64,000 nt of DNA from Myxococcota bacterium (GTDB taxonomy: Bacteria > Myxococcota_C > UBA6777): the NCBI GenBank assembly GCA_023150835.1, contig JAKLKB010000017.1, forward strand, positions 62,001 to 126,000, read 5' to 3'. Below, piece by piece: positions 4,617 to 56,119 of the stretch. How positions within the stretch are numbered: the stretch's first letter is position 1; every line of letters begins with the position of its first letter. The notes beneath the pieces were generated by a model. That model did no database searches. It was not told the DNA's origin and saw only the letters and a list, made by a program, of their open reading frames with translations. The position numbers were made by a program, and so were the translations under genes.

Positions 4617-4796
4617 AGGACAGGAGTTACGCAGTTGCCAAAAAAAAGCCGTGTTCGCGCTCTCTCAAGCGACAGAGTCGTTGTCTTGAAAGACCTGTGA
4701 TCTCTTCGTCAACACGGGGTCAAGGGAGCTGTGCTCTATGGCGGGGTGTGGGGTGGAACCCCACAAAAACCAGTCAACCGCGTAAGTTTTATCCTA
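4617..4796 (+). repeat. dispersed element R1, copy a
   Basis: Member of a non-coding family present at least six times in this window. It has the end motif AGGAGTTACGCAGTTG, the internal words CCGTGTTCGCG, CAAGCGACAGAGTCGTTGT and ACGGGGTCAAGGGAG, then a GTGGGGTGGAACCCCAC palindrome and the inverted end CGCGTAAGTTTTATCC. No ORF or transposase is present, so a MITE-like element is the best description. Its right edge supplies the TAG stop of the asparaginase/ankyrin gene. Confidence 0.8.
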
Positions 4797-34745: not shown

Positions 34746-34984
34746 TTGTGCTGTTCTTGCTTTGATCTGTTGCTTTCATGCAGTCGTTTCAAAAAAGAAA
34801 AAAGGCGACCGCTCCGCCCATCGCCACAAAGCTTGTGTGTGGATCGCGCTCCTTCGGGGGCGTCGTGCTTTGTCAAGGAAGTCGACACATCGTTGTCTCT
34901 TCTTTGCCAGCCGATCTCACCCGCTTCTCCCGCGACTTTCTTGGTGACCGAGAACTTTCTTCTGAAAAATGAACCCACCCAAAG

Positions 34985-35220
34985 GACGAGGCGTCTAGGC
35001 GCACCGAGGCTGCAAAAGCCAGCGGCGCATACACGCCTAACCATCGGTTCTATGCGTCCCGCGTATCGGCTGCGACTTCGTTATCCGGGTTCGAGTCCCG
35101 GGAACTCCACCATCGCCGTCTGTGGACGGTTTTGGGGTTCTGGCGGAATGGAAGACGCGCTTGATTTGGGATCAGGTAACACATCAAACTTTTTAACACA
35201 GCCACATACGGCACGCTGTG
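34985..35220 (+). ncRNA. structured RNA unit B around a permuted Leu-like tRNA
   Basis: Second unit, about 450 bp after unit A. Upstream elements are a hairpin GGCG-CATACA-CGCC followed by TAACCATCGGT, and the hairpin ATGCG-TCCCG-CGTAT (35052-35066). Downstream are GTAACACATCAAAC (35176-35189) and CACAGC-(12 nt)-GCTGTG (35197-35220) with ATACGG in the loop. Loop words match unit A while both stems differ yet still pair, which is covariation and argues for a conserved folded RNA rather than chance similarity. Confidence 0.6.
35068..35176 (+). tRNA. circularly permuted tRNA-Leu-like sequence (anticodon loop reads TGG)
   Basis: The 3' half comes first: T-arm CCGGG-TTCGAGT-CCCGG (35085-35101), acceptor strand GAACTCC (35102-35108), discriminator A, encoded CCA (35110-35112). 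A 21-nt linker follows, holding the hairpin CCGTC-TGTG-GACGG and TTTT. Then the 5' half: acceptor GGGGTTC (35134-35140), which pairs with GAACTCC at all 7 positions (one G:T); D-arm GCG...CGC with the Leu-type GGCGGAAT...GACGC; and anticodon arm CTTGA-TTTGGGA-TCAGG. The loop gives TGG (35167-35169), a proline anticodon on a leucine-type body. The linker hairpin plus T run could also be a terminator. Confidence 0.65.
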
Positions 35221-35524: not shown

Positions 35525-35712
35525 TGTTGGTGGGAGGGGCGTGTTATGTGGCAGGCGTTGTGCCTAGCGAGCAAGGGAAGACGGTGTAAATCCGTCACGG
35601 ACCCGCCACTGTGAGCGGTCAGGCTTGTGCAAAAGGGCCACTGTCCTTGATGGATGGGAAGGCGCACAAGATAGCGGCTGCAAGTCAGGAGACCTGAGCG
35701 AGGCATCCTCAT
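35525..35712 (+). promoter_or_regulatory. cobalamin riboswitch
   Basis: Contains the conserved core of the adenosylcobalamin/cobalamin riboswitch: GGGAAGACGGTGTAAATCCG, then TCACGGACCCGCCACTGTGA, and the B12 box CAAGTCAGGAGACCTG (about 35680-35695). It lies about 90 bp before the TonB-receptor start, as usual for vitamin B12 uptake genes, and should switch expression off when cobalamin is plentiful. A hairpin GATCGTG-TTT-CATGATC (35745-35761) lies between it and the gene and may be part of the expression platform. Confidence 0.95.
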
Positions 35713-35802
35713 TTCATATCCTCGGGATCTGGGATAGTTGAGGGCGATCGTGTTTCATGATCGAACCCTGCGCTATTCCAACTGCAAGCGGCCCTTCGTC
35801 AG

Positions 35803-38193
35803 GTGCGGAGGCTGCGAAAGGTTGGGAGTTTGCTGCTTTTGACTTGGTGGCTCACCTTGTTGGGCAGTGCGCAGACGCAGCATCCATCAAAGCCGATATG
35901 TCGGGCGATCCGATGTCCGTTGCCTTCTTGCTGTGTCTGGCGTTGTCTCGCAAACAAGCACTCGCTTACAAACAAAAACGACGCATTTGGCAAAAACCCC
36001 CGTGTTCTCGGCGGTTCAAGCGACAGAGTCATCTATTTGAAAAACGATGCCCTCTTCGCCGATACGGGGTCAAGGGGCCATCGGTCCCTTGTGGGGTGTG
36101 GGGTGAAACCCCACAAAACAAATCCAACAAATCACTCTTGTACAAAAAAAACCAAGTCGACGGCAAGAAAAAACCCGAAGTCTTCCTCGGAAGAAGAAGA
36201 GATCGTGGTGCGTGGGCAGCGGGAGCGTGCGCGGATCGAGTCGGAAGAAGCAACGGGTTTTGTGCAGATATTAGGGCGCAAGGAAGCCTTGCAAGGGGCG
36301 CGGACGTTGGGGGAGATCCTGCGAGAGTCAGCGGGGGTGCAGATCCGTTCGTTGGGATCGTGGGGGGCGTTGACACAGGCGTCGATTCGGGGATCCACAC
36401 CGGGGCAAGTCCAAGTTTTTTTGGATGGCGTCTTGTTGAATCACGGCAGCATGGGGGGGGTGGATCTGGGCGATCTTCCGTTGGGTGGATTGGAGCGGAT
36501 CGAGGTGTATCGGGGATTTGTGCCTGCGAGTCTTGGTGGAGCGATGGGCGGGGCGATCCATCTGGTGACGCGGGAAGGTGGGCGTTTGTTGCGTTGGGGG
36601 ATGGGAGCGACCTTGGGTTCTTTTGCGAGTGCGAAGGTGCAGGCGCATTACCAACACGGTGTAGGGGCGTGGCGTTGGGGCCTTTTTGCAAACTATCTTC
36701 ACAGCGGCGGGGCTTTTTCTTATTACGACGATCGAGGAACGCCCTTGCACACGGGCGATGATCAGAGCGAGGCGTTGCGACAAAACAACGATACGCATCT
36801 TGCCCAAGTGATCGGGCGCATGGGCGGTCGTTGGGGAAAAGTCAATCTGGATATCAGCCACTTGCTGGCATGGCGAGAACAGGGCATTCCGGGCCTCGGG
36901 CAGTTTCGGTCGTTGGAGGCCCGTTATGGAAGCCTTCGGAATGCGGGGCAGTTGCGCGTCCAAGCGCAGCAGATCCCGTGGTCACAAACCCGTATGGAGG
37001 GCCAGATCCAGTGGTTGCAACAAAGTGAGGTCTTTCGCGATCCGCTCGGTGAGATCGGTGTCGGGCGGCGGATCATCGAAAGTGGCCGAGATAGCCTTGG
37101 TGGGACGGCGCTTTTGGAATGGTGGATCACGCCACATCATCGGGTGCAATGGCCGTTATGGATGCGATGGGAGCAAGCGACAGCGGTGGATCAGATGGCG
37201 GGTGGACGGGCTTTGGCGGGCGGCCAGCGGGTGCATGGCTGGTCTGCGTTGGCGTATCAGGGCCAGATGGCGGGGGAGTGGGTGACATGGCAAGCGGCGA
37301 TGCGATTGGAAGGGGCCTATACATCGCCTTCTGTGCAGACGGTGGGGGCAGAAGAGGTCTTGCGGTGGTATCCGACGGGCCGTGTGGGGGTGCAGATCTG
37401 GCCGTGGCGTCCGTTGCGGATCAAGGCCAACGTCGGGCGTTATCTGCGCCTTCCTGATTTTTCAGAGATGTTTGGGGATCGCGGCGCAACGATGGGAAAC
37501 CCCGCACTTCGGCCCGAACAAGGTTGGCAATGGGATATCGGCCTACAATGGCGGATGCACGCGCCGTCGGCGGTGTTGCGGCGCTTGGAGATCGAAGCGG
37601 TGTTCTTTGGTAGCGCAGCCCAAGATCTGATCCGTTGGCTGCAAAACTCTCAACGCACGCTTGTTGCGGCGAACATCGATCAGGCCCTCACGATGGGCAT
37701 GGAAGCACGGTTGTTGTTGGAGATCTCGTCTTGGCTTCGTGTCGAAGGGGCGTTCACGTTGTTGGATGCCCGCAATCTTTCGATCGCGGCTTTTGAGCAA
37801 GGCCGCCAACTACCCGGGCGACCGCGTTATGATGCCTTTGTCCAAGCGACGTTGCAGCGATCATGGGGGCGTTTGTTTTATCGCTATCATTTTCTCGGTG
37901 AAAACTGGTTGGATCGTGCCAACCTTCATGCCCTAGGGAGCCGTCATCTGCACGGCCTTGGGGCGGTGCTTTACCCGGCGCGTTTGGCGCGGAAGTGGGG
38001 AATCGATGTGCCTTGGGAGGGCCTGCGTGTGCATCTCGATATCAGCAATCTGCTCGATCAACGGATGACATGGGTGGATCTGCAACCACCGTTGCCGAAC
38101 CGCACTCAAACCCCCCAAGCCATCGCCGATATCGGCGGCTACCCTCTGCCGGGGCGAGCGTTCTTTTTGTCGGTACATTGGGAGTTTTTTTAA
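35803..38193 (+). CDS. btuB: BtuB-like TonB-dependent outer-membrane receptor with in-frame R1 insertion
   Basis: Outer-membrane receptor for cobalamin or a related corrinoid (796 residues), called from the receptor layout and the riboswitch just upstream. The start is GTG 35803; a signal peptide (VGSLLLLTWWLTLLGSAQ) follows. The TonB box and plug begin near residue 130 (EEEIVVRGQRERARIE), with the plug signatures TLGEILRESAGVQIRSLG and GSTPGQVQVFLDGVLLN. The barrel ends in RAFFLSVHWEFF with the typical terminal Phe. Between signal peptide and TonB box lie about 100 unusual residues; residues 58-113 are encoded by a copy of element R1 (35975-36140) in frame. The first gene of the B12 operon. 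Confidence 0.9.
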   Translation: MRRLRKVGSLLLLTWWLTLLGSAQTQHPSKPICRAIRCPLPSCCVWRCLANKHSLTNKNDAFGKNPRVLGGSSDRVIYLKNDALFADTGSRGHRSLVGCGVKPHKTNPTNHSCTKKTKSTARKNPKSSSEEEEIVVRGQRERARIESEEATGFVQILGRKEALQGARTLGEILRESAGVQIRSLGSWGALTQASIRGSTPGQVQVFLDGVLLNHGSMGGVDLGDLPLGGLERIEVYRGFVPASLGGAMGGAIHLVTREGGRLLRWGMGATLGSFASAKVQAHYQHGVGAWRWGLFANYLHSGGAFSYYDDRGTPLHTGDDQSEALRQNNDTHLAQVIGRMGGRWGKVNLDISHLLAWREQGIPGLGQFRSLEARYGSLRNAGQLRVQAQQIPWSQTRMEGQIQWLQQSEVFRDPLGEIGVGRRIIESGRDSLGGTALLEWWITPHHRVQWPLWMRWEQATAVDQMAGGRALAGGQRVHGWSALAYQGQMAGEWVTWQAAMRLEGAYTSPSVQTVGAEEVLRWYPTGRVGVQIWPWRPLRIKANVGRYLRLPDFSEMFGDRGATMGNPALRPEQGWQWDIGLQWRMHAPSAVLRRLEIEAVFFGSAAQDLIRWLQNSQRTLVAANIDQALTMGMEARLLLEISSWLRVEGAFTLLDARNLSIAAFEQGRQLPGRPRYDAFVQATLQRSWGRLFYRYHFLGENWLDRANLHALGSRHLHGLGAVLYPARLARKWGIDVPWEGLRVHLDISNLLDQRMTWVDLQPPLPNRTQTPQAIADIGGYPLPGRAFFLSVHWEFF
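35975..36140 (+). repeat. dispersed element R1, copy b, inside btuB
   Basis: Shares with the other copies CCCGTGTTC, TTCAAGCGACAGAGTC, GATACGGGGTCAAGGGG, TCCCTTGTGGGGTGTGGGG and GTGAAACCCCAC, with decayed ends (ACGCATTTGGC and CCAACAAATCACTCTTG). It lies wholly within the btuB reading frame, which stays open through it. The encoded peptide includes RSLVGCGVKPHKT. Confidence 0.85.
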
Positions 38194-38375
38194 CAGGAAA
38201 CGACTTGCGCCGTTGGATGGTGTTTTGTGGGGCTTTGCCCCACGCCCCACAAGGGAGCGCGGCTCCCTTGAACCCCGCATCGGCGGGGCGAACAGAGGTT
38301 TTCAGACAAACAACTCTGCCGCTTGGGCCGTTGCAAATACGTCTTTTTTGAAAAATTGCGTAAGTCTTCACAGGA
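38194..38375 (-). repeat. dispersed element R1, copy c
   Basis: Reverse-orientation R1 filling the spacer between btuB and the first propeller lipoprotein. Its ends are CAGGAAACGACTTGCGCCGTT and, inverted, AATTGCGTAAGTCTTCACAG. It begins directly after the btuB stop, and its right edge carries the AGGAG that serves as ribosome binding site for the next gene. Confidence 0.85.
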
Positions 38376-38384
38376 GTTTATCAG

Positions 38385-39758
38385 ATGAAAAATTGGATGA
38401 GTGGTCTGTTTTTGGTCTTGTTCTTGGCATCGAGTGCTTTGATGCAGGGCGGCTGCGATGGCAAGGCGAGCGAGAACGTTGTGGAAAAGGTAACAAGCGA
38501 CGGGAGCGAAGCATCGCCTGAAGGTACGATGCCCGAAGGCGTAAAAGAAGAAGTCGCGCAAGAAGCCACCTCAGAACAAGAAGCTATTGTGGAGAAAATG
38601 CCTGAACGAAGTGAAGATATCCCCGAAGCCAAGCCTGAGACACAGGCGACAAATACGCTGGCTTTTGTGATCTCTTCCGACTATGTCAGCGGTCAGTTGG
38701 GGATCTTGGATGTCCATAAGCGAACATGGATACGCCAAGATGCTGCGGTGCTTTCGGGCGATGCGGTGATGCGGGTGTGGGGGGACTTGTTGTTTGTGTT
38801 GAATCGCTACAACGATCCGCAAAAAGAAGACGTGGTGCTTGTCTTTAACACAAAGACATTGCTCGAAGTGGGCCGATACAACGTGGGAGCCAAGAGCAAC
38901 CCCCAAGATATCGCAGTGATCAACGATCAAAAAGCGTACATCAGCTTGTACGAGCGGCCTCATGTCTTGATCGTGCATCCCACAACAGGCGAAGAGAAGG
39001 GAAAGATCGATCTGTCAACGCTTGTCGAAGCTTCCAAAAAGACATGCACGAAAGGCGACGATTGCAAGGACGCTTTTGGAAACGGCTCGGCGACTTGCAA
39101 CGCAGGAACTTGTGCAGCGGACGGATTACCCGAAGCCACAAAGATGTTGTTGTTTCAAGAAAAAGTCTATATTCTTGTGCAAGGTCTTGATCGCAATGAT
39201 GGTTTTGTTCCACTCAAAAGCGTCTTGGCTGCGATCGATGCCAAAAATGACACGCTGCTTGCGCAGCCTCTTACGATGAAAGGCGGCAATCCAACGGCTT
39301 TTGTGGACGATGCGCAAGGCAACTGGCTGATCGTCCAAAATGGCAACGCCTTTGATCCCAAAGATGGCGGAGTGGAGCGGTTTGATCTGAACCAAGGCAA
39401 ACTCGCGGGCAGTTTCTTGATCACCGAAGAGAAGCTGGGAGGGAGTTTGCCACAAAATGGAGCGATGGTGGTGATCTCGCCGACGTTGGGATATGTTCTG
39501 GTGTCGGATGCTTCGTTTAAACAGAGTCTTGTAAGTTTTAACCCGACCACAGGAAGCAAAGAAAAGGATCTGATCGTCGGGGCGGAGCTTGGGGAGCTTG
39601 CGATGCACGAAGGGCAGCTCTTGCTTGCAGACCGTAGCAAGGGGGCTTTTGGCGTTCGTGTCTTGGAGGCAGCAAGCGGAACGGCTGTCACGCAAGATCC
39701 GATCTCCACAGGCAAACTGCCTCCTGCTCAGATCGTGATCGTCAAGCGCGCAAACTGA
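38385..39758 (+). CDS. BtuG-like beta-propeller surface lipoprotein 1
   Basis: Lipoprotein of 457 residues; lipobox region SALMQGGC, then a 60-residue Glu/Ser-rich stalk. The rest has YncE/WD40-like propeller blades: LAFVISSDYVSGQLGILDV, RVWGDLLFVLNRYN, KSNPQDIAVINDQKAYISLY, QEKVYILVQGLDR. A Cys-containing loop (KTCTKGDDCKDAFGN and ATCNAGTC) interrupts it. In Bacteroides the propeller lipoprotein BtuG sits over BtuB and captures B12; the position right after btuB under a cobalamin riboswitch supports the same role here by inference. AGGAG precedes the ATG. Confidence 0.8.
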   Translation: MKNWMSGLFLVLFLASSALMQGGCDGKASENVVEKVTSDGSEASPEGTMPEGVKEEVAQEATSEQEAIVEKMPERSEDIPEAKPETQATNTLAFVISSDYVSGQLGILDVHKRTWIRQDAAVLSGDAVMRVWGDLLFVLNRYNDPQKEDVVLVFNTKTLLEVGRYNVGAKSNPQDIAVINDQKAYISLYERPHVLIVHPTTGEEKGKIDLSTLVEASKKTCTKGDDCKDAFGNGSATCNAGTCAADGLPEATKMLLFQEKVYILVQGLDRNDGFVPLKSVLAAIDAKNDTLLAQPLTMKGGNPTAFVDDAQGNWLIVQNGNAFDPKDGGVERFDLNQGKLAGSFLITEEKLGGSLPQNGAMVVISPTLGYVLVSDASFKQSLVSFNPTTGSKEKDLIVGAELGELAMHEGQLLLADRSKGAFGVRVLEAASGTAVTQDPISTGKLPPAQIVIVKRAN

Positions 39759-39773
39759 GCCTCTCAGATCTCG

Positions 39774-39943
39774 TAGGAGTGACGCAGTTGGGCGGATGTG
39801 GTGGGGTTTCACCCCACACCCCACAAGGGAGCGCGGCTCGATGGACCCCGTATTGGCGAGGTGAGCGCAGGTTTTTCAAAACAACGACTCTGTCGCTTGG
39901 GCGTTCGCGAACACGGCTTTTTTGGCAACTGCGCCACTCCTAT
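39774..39943 (-). repeat. dispersed element R1, copy d (best preserved ends)
   Basis: About 170 bp with clear terminal inverted repeats: AGGAGTGACGCAGTTGG at the left and CAACTGCGCCACTCCT at the right. The inner palindrome is TGGGGTTTCACCCCA. It fills the spacer between the two propeller-lipoprotein genes, in the same orientation as copy c. Confidence 0.9.
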
Positions 39944-39978
39944 CTCATTGAACTCCTGCGGGAGTGGAGTGATCGCCG

Positions 39979-41196
39979 ATGCGTGTGTTCGGGCGTTGGG
40001 TTGTGTGGTGTGTGTGCGGTTGGCTCGGAGGGGTGGGGTGGATCGCATGCGTTCCACCGACGCTGCCGACAGATCGCCTTGCTGCGGGGGCTTTACAAAA
40101 CGGCGCATGGGCTGTGGTGATCGGGCGTTCCGAACAAAGCGGGGCATTTGGGGCGATCGACCTTGAGCGCCGAGTGGCCTACAAACTGGTCGGACCCGCT
40201 TCCAACGATGCGGTAGCGCGAGTGTGGGGGAACACGCTTTACATCATCAATCGCTACACACACGACAACATCCAAGCGATGGATCTCCGTGACATGCGCC
40301 TATTGACCCAATTTTCTGTCGGCGTAGGGGCCAATCCCCAAGACCTCGTTGTCGTGGGCAAAAAGGCGTATATCTCTTGCTTGGGTCGGGCTGCGCTGCA
40401 AGTCGTGGATGCCGCGTCGGGAAAGCTGCAAACACAGATCGATCTGTCGGCACTTTCCGAGGTGGGAAACAAGCCTTGTCAGGGAGATGCGGATTGTGGG
40501 GGTGTGCGTTGTCTTGGGGGGGCTTGTGCGCTGGACGATCTGCCTGAGTTGGGGCGGATGTTTTTGTACCAGCAACGTTGGCTGTATGTTCTTGTCCAAC
40601 GCCTTGACCAGCAACGTCAATTTTTGCCGACGACCCAAGGCTTGTTGGCCTTGATCGATACTGAAAACGATACGCTGGTGCAGAGCTTCCCGATGCAAGG
40701 GAGCAATCCGCTTTATCTATCCCCTTCGGTCGACGGAAAGCACCTGTATGTGGCCCAAGTCGGCCAATGGATGAATGAACAAGGAGCGCCAGCTTTGGAT
40801 GGTGTGTTGGAGCGCTTTTCTCTCGAAGAGCGGCGCTTTGACGCGGTGATCTTGCGAGAAGAGTCCTTGGGTGGAAACCTCGGATCCTTCGCCATGATCG
40901 ATGCGTCTTCGGGTGTCGTGATCCGAACGGGGGCTTCTTTTCGCACGGAACTTGTGCGTTTTGATGCCACACAAGGCAAAGTCGTTTCTCAGTGGGCCGC
41001 TTCGGAATGTACAGGGGGAGTCTCATGTTTTTCTTTTGTTCAGGTCGCGAAAACGCCCAAGGGTGGGGTGATCCTGTTGGATCGCTATGAAAAAAAGCCG
41101 GGAGTGCGCTTGTTTGATCCGACAGAGGGCCGAGAACAAACAGCGGCTCCCTTGGATATCGGCTTACCCCCCGAGTTTGTAGTCTTTGCACCGTAG
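39979..41196 (+). CDS. BtuG-like beta-propeller surface lipoprotein 2
   Basis: Paralogue of the previous gene (405 residues) without the long stalk. The lipobox is WIAC. Matching blades are VARVWGNTLYIINRYTHDN, GANPQDLVVVGKKAYISCLG and the Cys loop KPCQGDADCGGVRCLGGAC, then QRWLYVLVQRLDQ. The shared Cys-loop position confirms common ancestry. Probably also surface-exposed and corrinoid-binding, by context. The stop region (TTTGCACCGTAGAAGG) is repeated 63 bp downstream. Confidence 0.8.
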   Translation: MRVFGRWVVWCVCGWLGGVGWIACVPPTLPTDRLAAGALQNGAWAVVIGRSEQSGAFGAIDLERRVAYKLVGPASNDAVARVWGNTLYIINRYTHDNIQAMDLRDMRLLTQFSVGVGANPQDLVVVGKKAYISCLGRAALQVVDAASGKLQTQIDLSALSEVGNKPCQGDADCGGVRCLGGACALDDLPELGRMFLYQQRWLYVLVQRLDQQRQFLPTTQGLLALIDTENDTLVQSFPMQGSNPLYLSPSVDGKHLYVAQVGQWMNEQGAPALDGVLERFSLEERRFDAVILREESLGGNLGSFAMIDASSGVVIRTGASFRTELVRFDATQGKVVSQWAASECTGGVSCFSFVQVAKTPKGGVILLDRYEKKPGVRLFDPTEGREQTAAPLDIGLPPEFVVFAP

Positions 41197-54254: not shown

Positions 54255-54657
54255 GGTTGATCTTCGGCAAGGAAGCCGTGATCGCGAACGTCCAAGCGAC
54301 AGAGTCGTTGTGTTGAAAACCTGTGCTGTCTTCGCCAAATACGGGGTCCATAGAGCCGCACTCCCTTGTGGGGTGTGGGGTGAAACCCCATAGGCGTTAG
54401 GTTAAGCGCTTGTTGGCCCCCCACCCCAGCCCTCCCCCGTGAACAGGGGAGGGAGCGAAAGTCGGAAGCAGCGGGGATGTTGTTTTTTCGTGACGCACGC
54501 TGTATGCACGAGACGCAGACGCTACGTTCACGGGGGGATTGAGGGGGGGCCAACACCCAAAACGGCGATCATCCTCGACCCTCCGGTGTTTCCACCTTAA
54601 CCTAGCGCGTGTGGGGTGAAACCCCACAAAATAAATTGGAACGGTGTAAGTCCTAGG
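54255..54657 (+). repeat. dispersed element R1, copy e, split by element R3
   Basis: Left part 54255-54391 has GAAGCCGTG, CCAAGCGACAGAGTCGTTGT and AATACGGGGTCCATAGAGCC up to GGGGTGAAACCCCA. Right part 54609-54657 resumes with GTGTGGGGTGAAACCCCACA and ends AACGGTGTAAGTCCTAGG. The 18-bp word GTGTGGGGTGAAACCCCA is present on both sides of the inserted DNA. Confidence 0.75.
54392..54608. repeat. element R3 nested inside R1
   Basis: 217 bp with inverted ends GCGTTAGGTTAAG and CTTAACCTAGCGC, and inner inverted words TTGTTGGCCCCCC and GGGGGGGCCAACA. The middle has CCCTCCCCCGTGAACAGGGG. No ORF of note. Its position between two copies of an 18-bp word suggests insertion with target duplication, or recombination between two R1 copies. 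Confidence 0.65.
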
Positions 54658-55954: not shown

Positions 55955-56112
55955 AGTGATCTGAAGACAAAAAAACCCGTGTTCGCGATGTTTCAAGCGA
56001 CAGCGTGCTTGGTTTGAAAAACCTCCGATCTCTTCGCCAATACGGGGTCAAGGGGACGTCGGTCCCTTGCGGGGCGTGGGGTGGCACCCCACAAGAACAA
56101 ACCCGATCGCGC
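55955..56112 (+). repeat. dispersed element R1, copy f
   Basis: Directly abuts R2. Contains CCCGTGTTCGCGATG, TTCAAGCGACAG, CCAATACGGGGTCAAGGGG and GCGTGGGGTGGCACCCCAC, ending near GCGCAGGCTTC, eight bases before the stop of the minus-strand methyltransferase gene. Confidence 0.75.
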
Positions 56113-56119
56113 AGGCTTC

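Follow-up and report, generated by a model that had tools for sequence, protein, structure and literature searches.

How does a copy of R1, a dispersed element found mostly between genes, come to lie in the reading frame of an outer-membrane receptor gene, and is it translated there? The window (the whole stretch of DNA analysed, 64,000 nucleotides, G000:C138:62001-126000, from a 7.56-Mb assembly) contains an ORF at 35803-38193 that starts with GTG, encodes 796 amino acids, and is open throughout. The original prediction described a btuB frame unbroken from signal peptide to barrel. This holds, and the frame is also kept in KLAP109, a Myxococcota MAG that represents a sister species and is the only relative within the genus compared here. 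The receptor gene and its leader are laid out as follows.

35529 to 35717, plus strand: cobalamin riboswitch aptamer RF00174 (Rfam gathering match, 90.2 bits, E 5e-21)
35803 to 35880, plus strand: part coding for the signal peptide, MRRLRKVGSLLLLTWWLTLLGSAQTQ, in the receptor frame (ORF list, strict signal-peptide rule, hydropathy)
35881 to 35972, plus strand: linker from signal peptide to R1 (codon usage favors frame 2 over the receptor frame, where it is strongly non-coding)
35966 to 35972, plus strand: left putative target-site duplication (TSD), TTACAAA (identical in 6 of 7 bases to GTACAAA at 36140-36146)
35973 to 36139, plus strand: R1 copy of 167 nt, residues ~57-113 (consensus, TIR register, genome copies)
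36140 to 36146, plus strand: right putative TSD, GTACAAA, running into an A8 tract at 36144-36151 (from the sequence)
36190 to 36219, plus strand: TonB-box region, EEEEIVVRGQ (TIGR01779 aligns from residue 131)
36247 to 38190, plus strand: plug and beta-barrel, BtuB-like (Pfam PF07715 and PF00593 above cut-off; nearest solved chains)

The gene had been taken for a B12 receptor. The riboswitch aptamer, which ends 85 nt upstream of the start, the plug domain (from residue 149 according to Pfam), and the barrel agree with this, so that both a TonB-dependent plug and barrel and cobalamin riboswitch control are present. Although BtuB is among the closest solved chains, the curated B12-receptor model TIGR01779 scores 89.1 bits, far below its cut-off of 599.7, and we therefore name the receptor BtuB-like. 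Comparison of plug and barrel with KLAP109 (pS 0.129, pN 0.011) indicates strong purifying selection. Directly 3' of the aptamer lies a hairpin (GGGATAG...CTATTCC, 35731-35779) in which a G-U pair is replaced by G-C in KLAP109 (CTATCCC); it is possibly the expression platform. Two paralogous lipoprotein-like genes (457 and 405 amino acids) follow the receptor at 38385-41196, each preceded by an R1 copy, and a homologue precedes the receptor gene in the family relative G003 (L012 44-1429).

Two related tRNA-like units have the 3' half standing before the 5' half, a circularly permuted order (window 34537-35180; L029 2704-2995). The first, Ser-like, reads ...GGGTTCGAATCCCGGCTTCTCC, a short spacer, and GGAGATGTGGCCGAG..., with 6 of 7 acceptor pairs; it is strongly conserved in KLAP109, where the anticodon loop CTGTAAA becomes CTCTAAA. 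The second, with a Leu-like D arm, reads ...CCGGGTTCGAGTCCCGGGAACTCCACCA, a spacer, and GGGGTTCTGGCGGAATGG..., with 7 of 7 acceptor pairs including a G-U, and its core is absent from KLAP109. Both are flanked by the motifs ATCGGT... and TAACA..TCAAAC. ARAGORN at default settings found nothing in these units, and Rfam gave sub-threshold matches to tRNA and permuted tmRNA. They may represent tRNA genes or intron-exon units in permuted order, or else decayed tRNAs.

R1 is a MITE-like, non-autonomous element of this genus. Sampled copies have a modal length of 167-169 nt and end in TIRs of 16-17 bp (TAGGAGTGACGCAGTTG/CAACTGCGTCACTCCTA), which are near perfect in several copies and degenerate in the receptor copy, and they are bordered by TSDs of 7-8 bp; the 8-mers flanking R1 give a match of 3.27, compared with 2.37 at random in re-paired controls. 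The element thus shares with bacterial MITEs a size of 100-400 bp, the lack of a transposase, a high copy number, TIRs, and target-site duplication. The sample was screened by distance for TIR pairs spaced as in an IS, and the one pair that was read (993 nt) contained no transposase. A second MITE family, R2 (~114 nt; L121 6637-6750; 73 matches in the sample), carries the TIRs of R1, which suggests that both may be served by one transposase; no R2 copy was found in frame inside a gene in the sample.

An R1 HMM built from sampled copies and run with nhmmer on 2.02 Mb of G000 and 0.335 Mb of G001 (2.35 Mb from two species) returned 303 copies above 30 bits. The genome of the window (G000) has 241 copies in ~2.0 Mb, a density that is approximate because the sample was partly picked through R1 matches. 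First-look candidates number about 690 and 631 in the two genus genomes, and R1 is present in several hundred copies per genome. None of three family relatives had a match in a sequence search, and R1 appears to be restricted to the genus. No match was found among the home plasmids. In addition to the copy in the receptor, the window contains the following.

4622 to 4792, plus strand: R1 copy, intergenic, common to KLAP109
38199 to 38366, minus strand: R1 copy, directly after the receptor stop codon
39774 to 39942 (or to 39943), minus strand: R1 copy with near-perfect TIRs, empty site in KLAP109
54268 to 54392, plus strand: R1 copy
55956 to 56116, plus strand: R1 copy

Presence and absence of copies differ between the sister species, indicating that R1 has moved or been lost since they split. 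The site matching ~39774-39943 is empty in KLAP109, with one ATCTCGT in place of the ATCTCGT...ATCTCAT pair that brackets the element in the window. At the syntenic position, G000 lacks a copy that KLAP109 carries (L058). The copy at 38199-38366 has been reduced by deletion in KLAP109, leaving a remnant of one TIR.

The original description of R1 as a non-coding element between genes is correct as to location, with 172 of 180 copies of the first sample intergenic and two inside called genes, but R1 is a MITE with TIRs and TSDs rather than a generic repeat. With about three quarters of the sampled sequence coding (gene calls and codon scores were home-made), the rarity of intragenic copies indicates that such insertions are mostly purged, as is expected if the reading frame survives, by chance, in a minority of cases. 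Only 21-37% of copies are open in any one frame, and we rejected the idea that R1 is itself a protein-coding element with a selected frame. In-frame intragenic R1 was found at three loci among the 303 copy instances.

Other copies in the genome are 78-88% identical to the R1 stretch of the receptor gene (lowest E 1e-37), well above what chance would give, and the repeat is read in frame, as had been proposed. The residues assigned to it, about 58-113, are better given as ~57-113 from the consensus ends; the left TIR and TSD are degenerate, and since the TIR is worn the exact ends of this copy are approximate. TTACAAA and GTACAAA at its borders lie 174 nt (58 codons) apart. This copy is also present in KLAP109, where it is 98% identical (three substitutions in 167 bases), free of indels, and open in the receptor frame; we know of no empty site for it within the genus. 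We found no relative with the same N-terminal segment but without R1 similarity: in family orthologues (~40% identity) the signal peptide is followed by an R1-free linker of different length. These linkers, the frame kept in both species, and the almost certain translation of R1 inside a second gene make an in-frame insertion between signal peptide and TonB box, as first suggested, the best reading. In the orthologue of the family relative G002 (L011 1291-3585) the linker consists of short tandem peptide repeats (HSTTRVSPPKP-like), which is another route to lengthening the same periplasmic segment.

Only one open frame joins the canonical signal peptide at GTG 35803 to the TonB box and barrel. 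Openness by itself was rejected as proof of fusion, since 8% of dinucleotide shuffles of 35803-36139 are also open, and R1 could instead lie in a 5' untranslated leader, with the true start downstream of 36140 and the upstream frame open by chance. R1 is normally intergenic, and ~20 other copies upstream of genes also fall in chance ORF extensions. These were rejected as N-terminal fusions, for they mostly have a better hydrophobic N-terminus downstream of R1 or no start upstream. Unlike them, the receptor has a signal peptide upstream of R1 that by hydropathy is stronger than in any other N-terminal R1 case, and none is found downstream of R1 in this gene, so that a start after 36140 would yield a TonB-dependent receptor without one. 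GTG 35803 passes a strict signal-peptide rule that only 0.66% of non-coding open starts pass. Intergenic copies have drifted by 10% between the species, but the receptor copy by 2%. The receptor copy is singled out because a signal peptide lies upstream in frame, none lies downstream, and the frame is retained in KLAP109. We consider an untranslated leader very unlikely.

The exact N-terminus is less certain, as the 31 codons before R1 are strongly non-coding in the receptor frame. The codon score of 35881-35972 is -13.6 per 100 nt in this frame, a value as low as that of only 0.04% of coding windows, and +4.5 in frame 2. Either this segment turned coding recently or the receptor N-terminus differs from its appearance. 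No Shine-Dalgarno core precedes GTG 35803 (one is present at 115 of 228 called ATG starts), and no significant further copy of the linker 35881-35972 was found elsewhere. Translation might instead begin in frame 2, at ATG 35757, 35898, or 35913, and enter the receptor frame through a +1 shift or slippage on the A8 tract, with R1 read in another frame. Frame 2 runs through R1 without a stop codon in both species, the A8 tract, which adjoins R1 and would allow slippage, is identical in both, and an SD-like GAGG stands before ATG 35757. However, no frame-2 start passes the signal-peptide rule, the leader before R1 scores only about -1 to +3 in frame 2, and the changes within 35803-35891 are two synonymous and two nonsynonymous in the receptor frame, with none synonymous in frame 2. 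This start also depends on an unproven frameshift, and it seems quite unlikely. A historical variant, in which an older frame-2 N-terminus was replaced by the receptor frame, or is still joined to it by slippage at A8, with the insertion of R1, is unlikely as well. If true, it would mean that a mobile element helped to re-engineer the start of an outer-membrane receptor.

With R1 read in the receptor frame, the inserted peptide looks like a tolerated passenger, since the changes in its codons relative to KLAP109 are not biased toward synonymous ones (0 synonymous, 3 nonsynonymous). Divergence between the species is 3/154 in this copy compared with 116/1148 in eight cleanly aligned common intergenic copies (Poisson P about 1e-4, worked by hand); noisier alignments, mostly with higher values, were left out, and one R1 copy at a contig end lies in an almost identical stretch (1/151 differences). 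Such low divergence, together with a fold more stable than shuffles (z -2.9), would be consistent with co-option of the insert, either as an extra periplasmic peptide or as RNA hairpins beside the riboswitch. Yet all three changes are nonsynonymous, the low divergence extends across the whole riboswitch leader, and RNAalifold gave almost no covariation support for a conserved structure of R1. The low divergence may not reflect constraint on the protein, and selection on the insert appears very improbable.

The search for other in-frame copies within ORFs found two, both in one gene. On contig C39, an ORF of 2592 codons with ketoacyl synthase, acyltransferase, and FabA-like domains (PfaC/polyketide-synthase-like) contains R1 between two FabA-like domains, read as DKTPRVREVSSGSVVVLKDDDLFADTGSKGRSLLAGGGPSPHKTDPS in the frame that is also used in the receptor. 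Both species carry a second, antisense copy in this gene, and their versions differ by a 9-nt in-frame indel. Besides the receptor, this is the only gene in the 2.35 Mb with strictly internal in-frame R1. Its counterparts in family relatives have shorter, R1-free linkers. The gap opposite the C39 copy in KLAP109 (240 nt, 80 codons) was rejected as an empty site; the first ~27 nt of R1 are kept there, indicating an in-frame deletion that took most of the element. Translation through R1 is hardly avoidable in this gene because conserved domains flank it, and it provides the strongest evidence for in-frame tolerance of R1.

In-frame MITE fusion is real in these genomes. We regard it as likely that R1 inserted in frame between signal peptide and TonB box of the receptor and was tolerated there, and that this was repeated in the PfaC/polyketide-synthase-like protein. 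In-frame fusion is favored for the receptor because signal peptide and barrel share a frame, the barrel is under purifying selection, and the divergence of R1 is low. The element would be mobilized in trans by a transposase. Before the two sampled species diverged, a copy would have entered, between signal peptide and TonB box, the sequence coding for the periplasmic N-terminal extension of the BtuB-like receptor. With the target duplication it would have added 174 nt (58 codons), the copy happening to be open in the receptor frame. The receptor would still be made, with 56-58 extra residues that are presumably neither spliced out nor cleaved off together with the signal peptide. They would lie in a flexible periplasmic segment whose length varies between relatives, probably as a passenger whose sequence is not under selection. 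R1 would have done the same at least twice more, in linkers of the PfaC/polyketide-synthase-like protein.

In-frame insertion of short dispersed elements is known from other bacteria. Rickettsia palindromic elements (RPEs; 105-150 bp) occur intergenically as well as in frame within proteins (PMC2229807; PMC10969869), and nearly half of those in R. conorii are intragenic (PMC10969869). The likeness to RPEs noted in the original prediction holds as one of behavior only: both are short, dispersed, intergenic, and found in frame. The hosts belong to different phyla, however, and RPEs are often intragenic whereas R1 rarely is, with each of its frames open in a minority of copies. The high-copy MITEs QMITE1 and QMITE2 of Coxiella burnetii change the coding sequences of genes, in some cases in frame (PMC5896051). 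Where known functional genes are affected they lie at 3' ends, whereas R1 occupies the N-terminal part of a receptor and the interior of a multidomain synthase. In Yersinia, the 168-bp MITE YPAL/RU-2 has an open frame of 56 amino acids and is fused to a predicted exported protein (PMC2229807). There it forms part of the signal peptide, whereas R1 follows an existing signal peptide in a conserved receptor. A literature search combining MITEs, TonB-dependent receptors, and in-frame insertion found no paper in the library searched. R1 is a new element family in new host genes, the phenomenon itself being known. It extends in-frame MITE fusion, best known from Rickettsia, to an uncultured myxobacterium with a large genome, at sites (a periplasmic extension and linkers between domains) that can take additional residues at little cost. 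Covering two species, a second gene, and copies present in one species but absent from the other, the case offers a small natural series of insertion, in-frame survival, and in-frame decay. It allows one to examine whether chance tolerance or selection lies behind the seeding of protein linkers by mobile elements.
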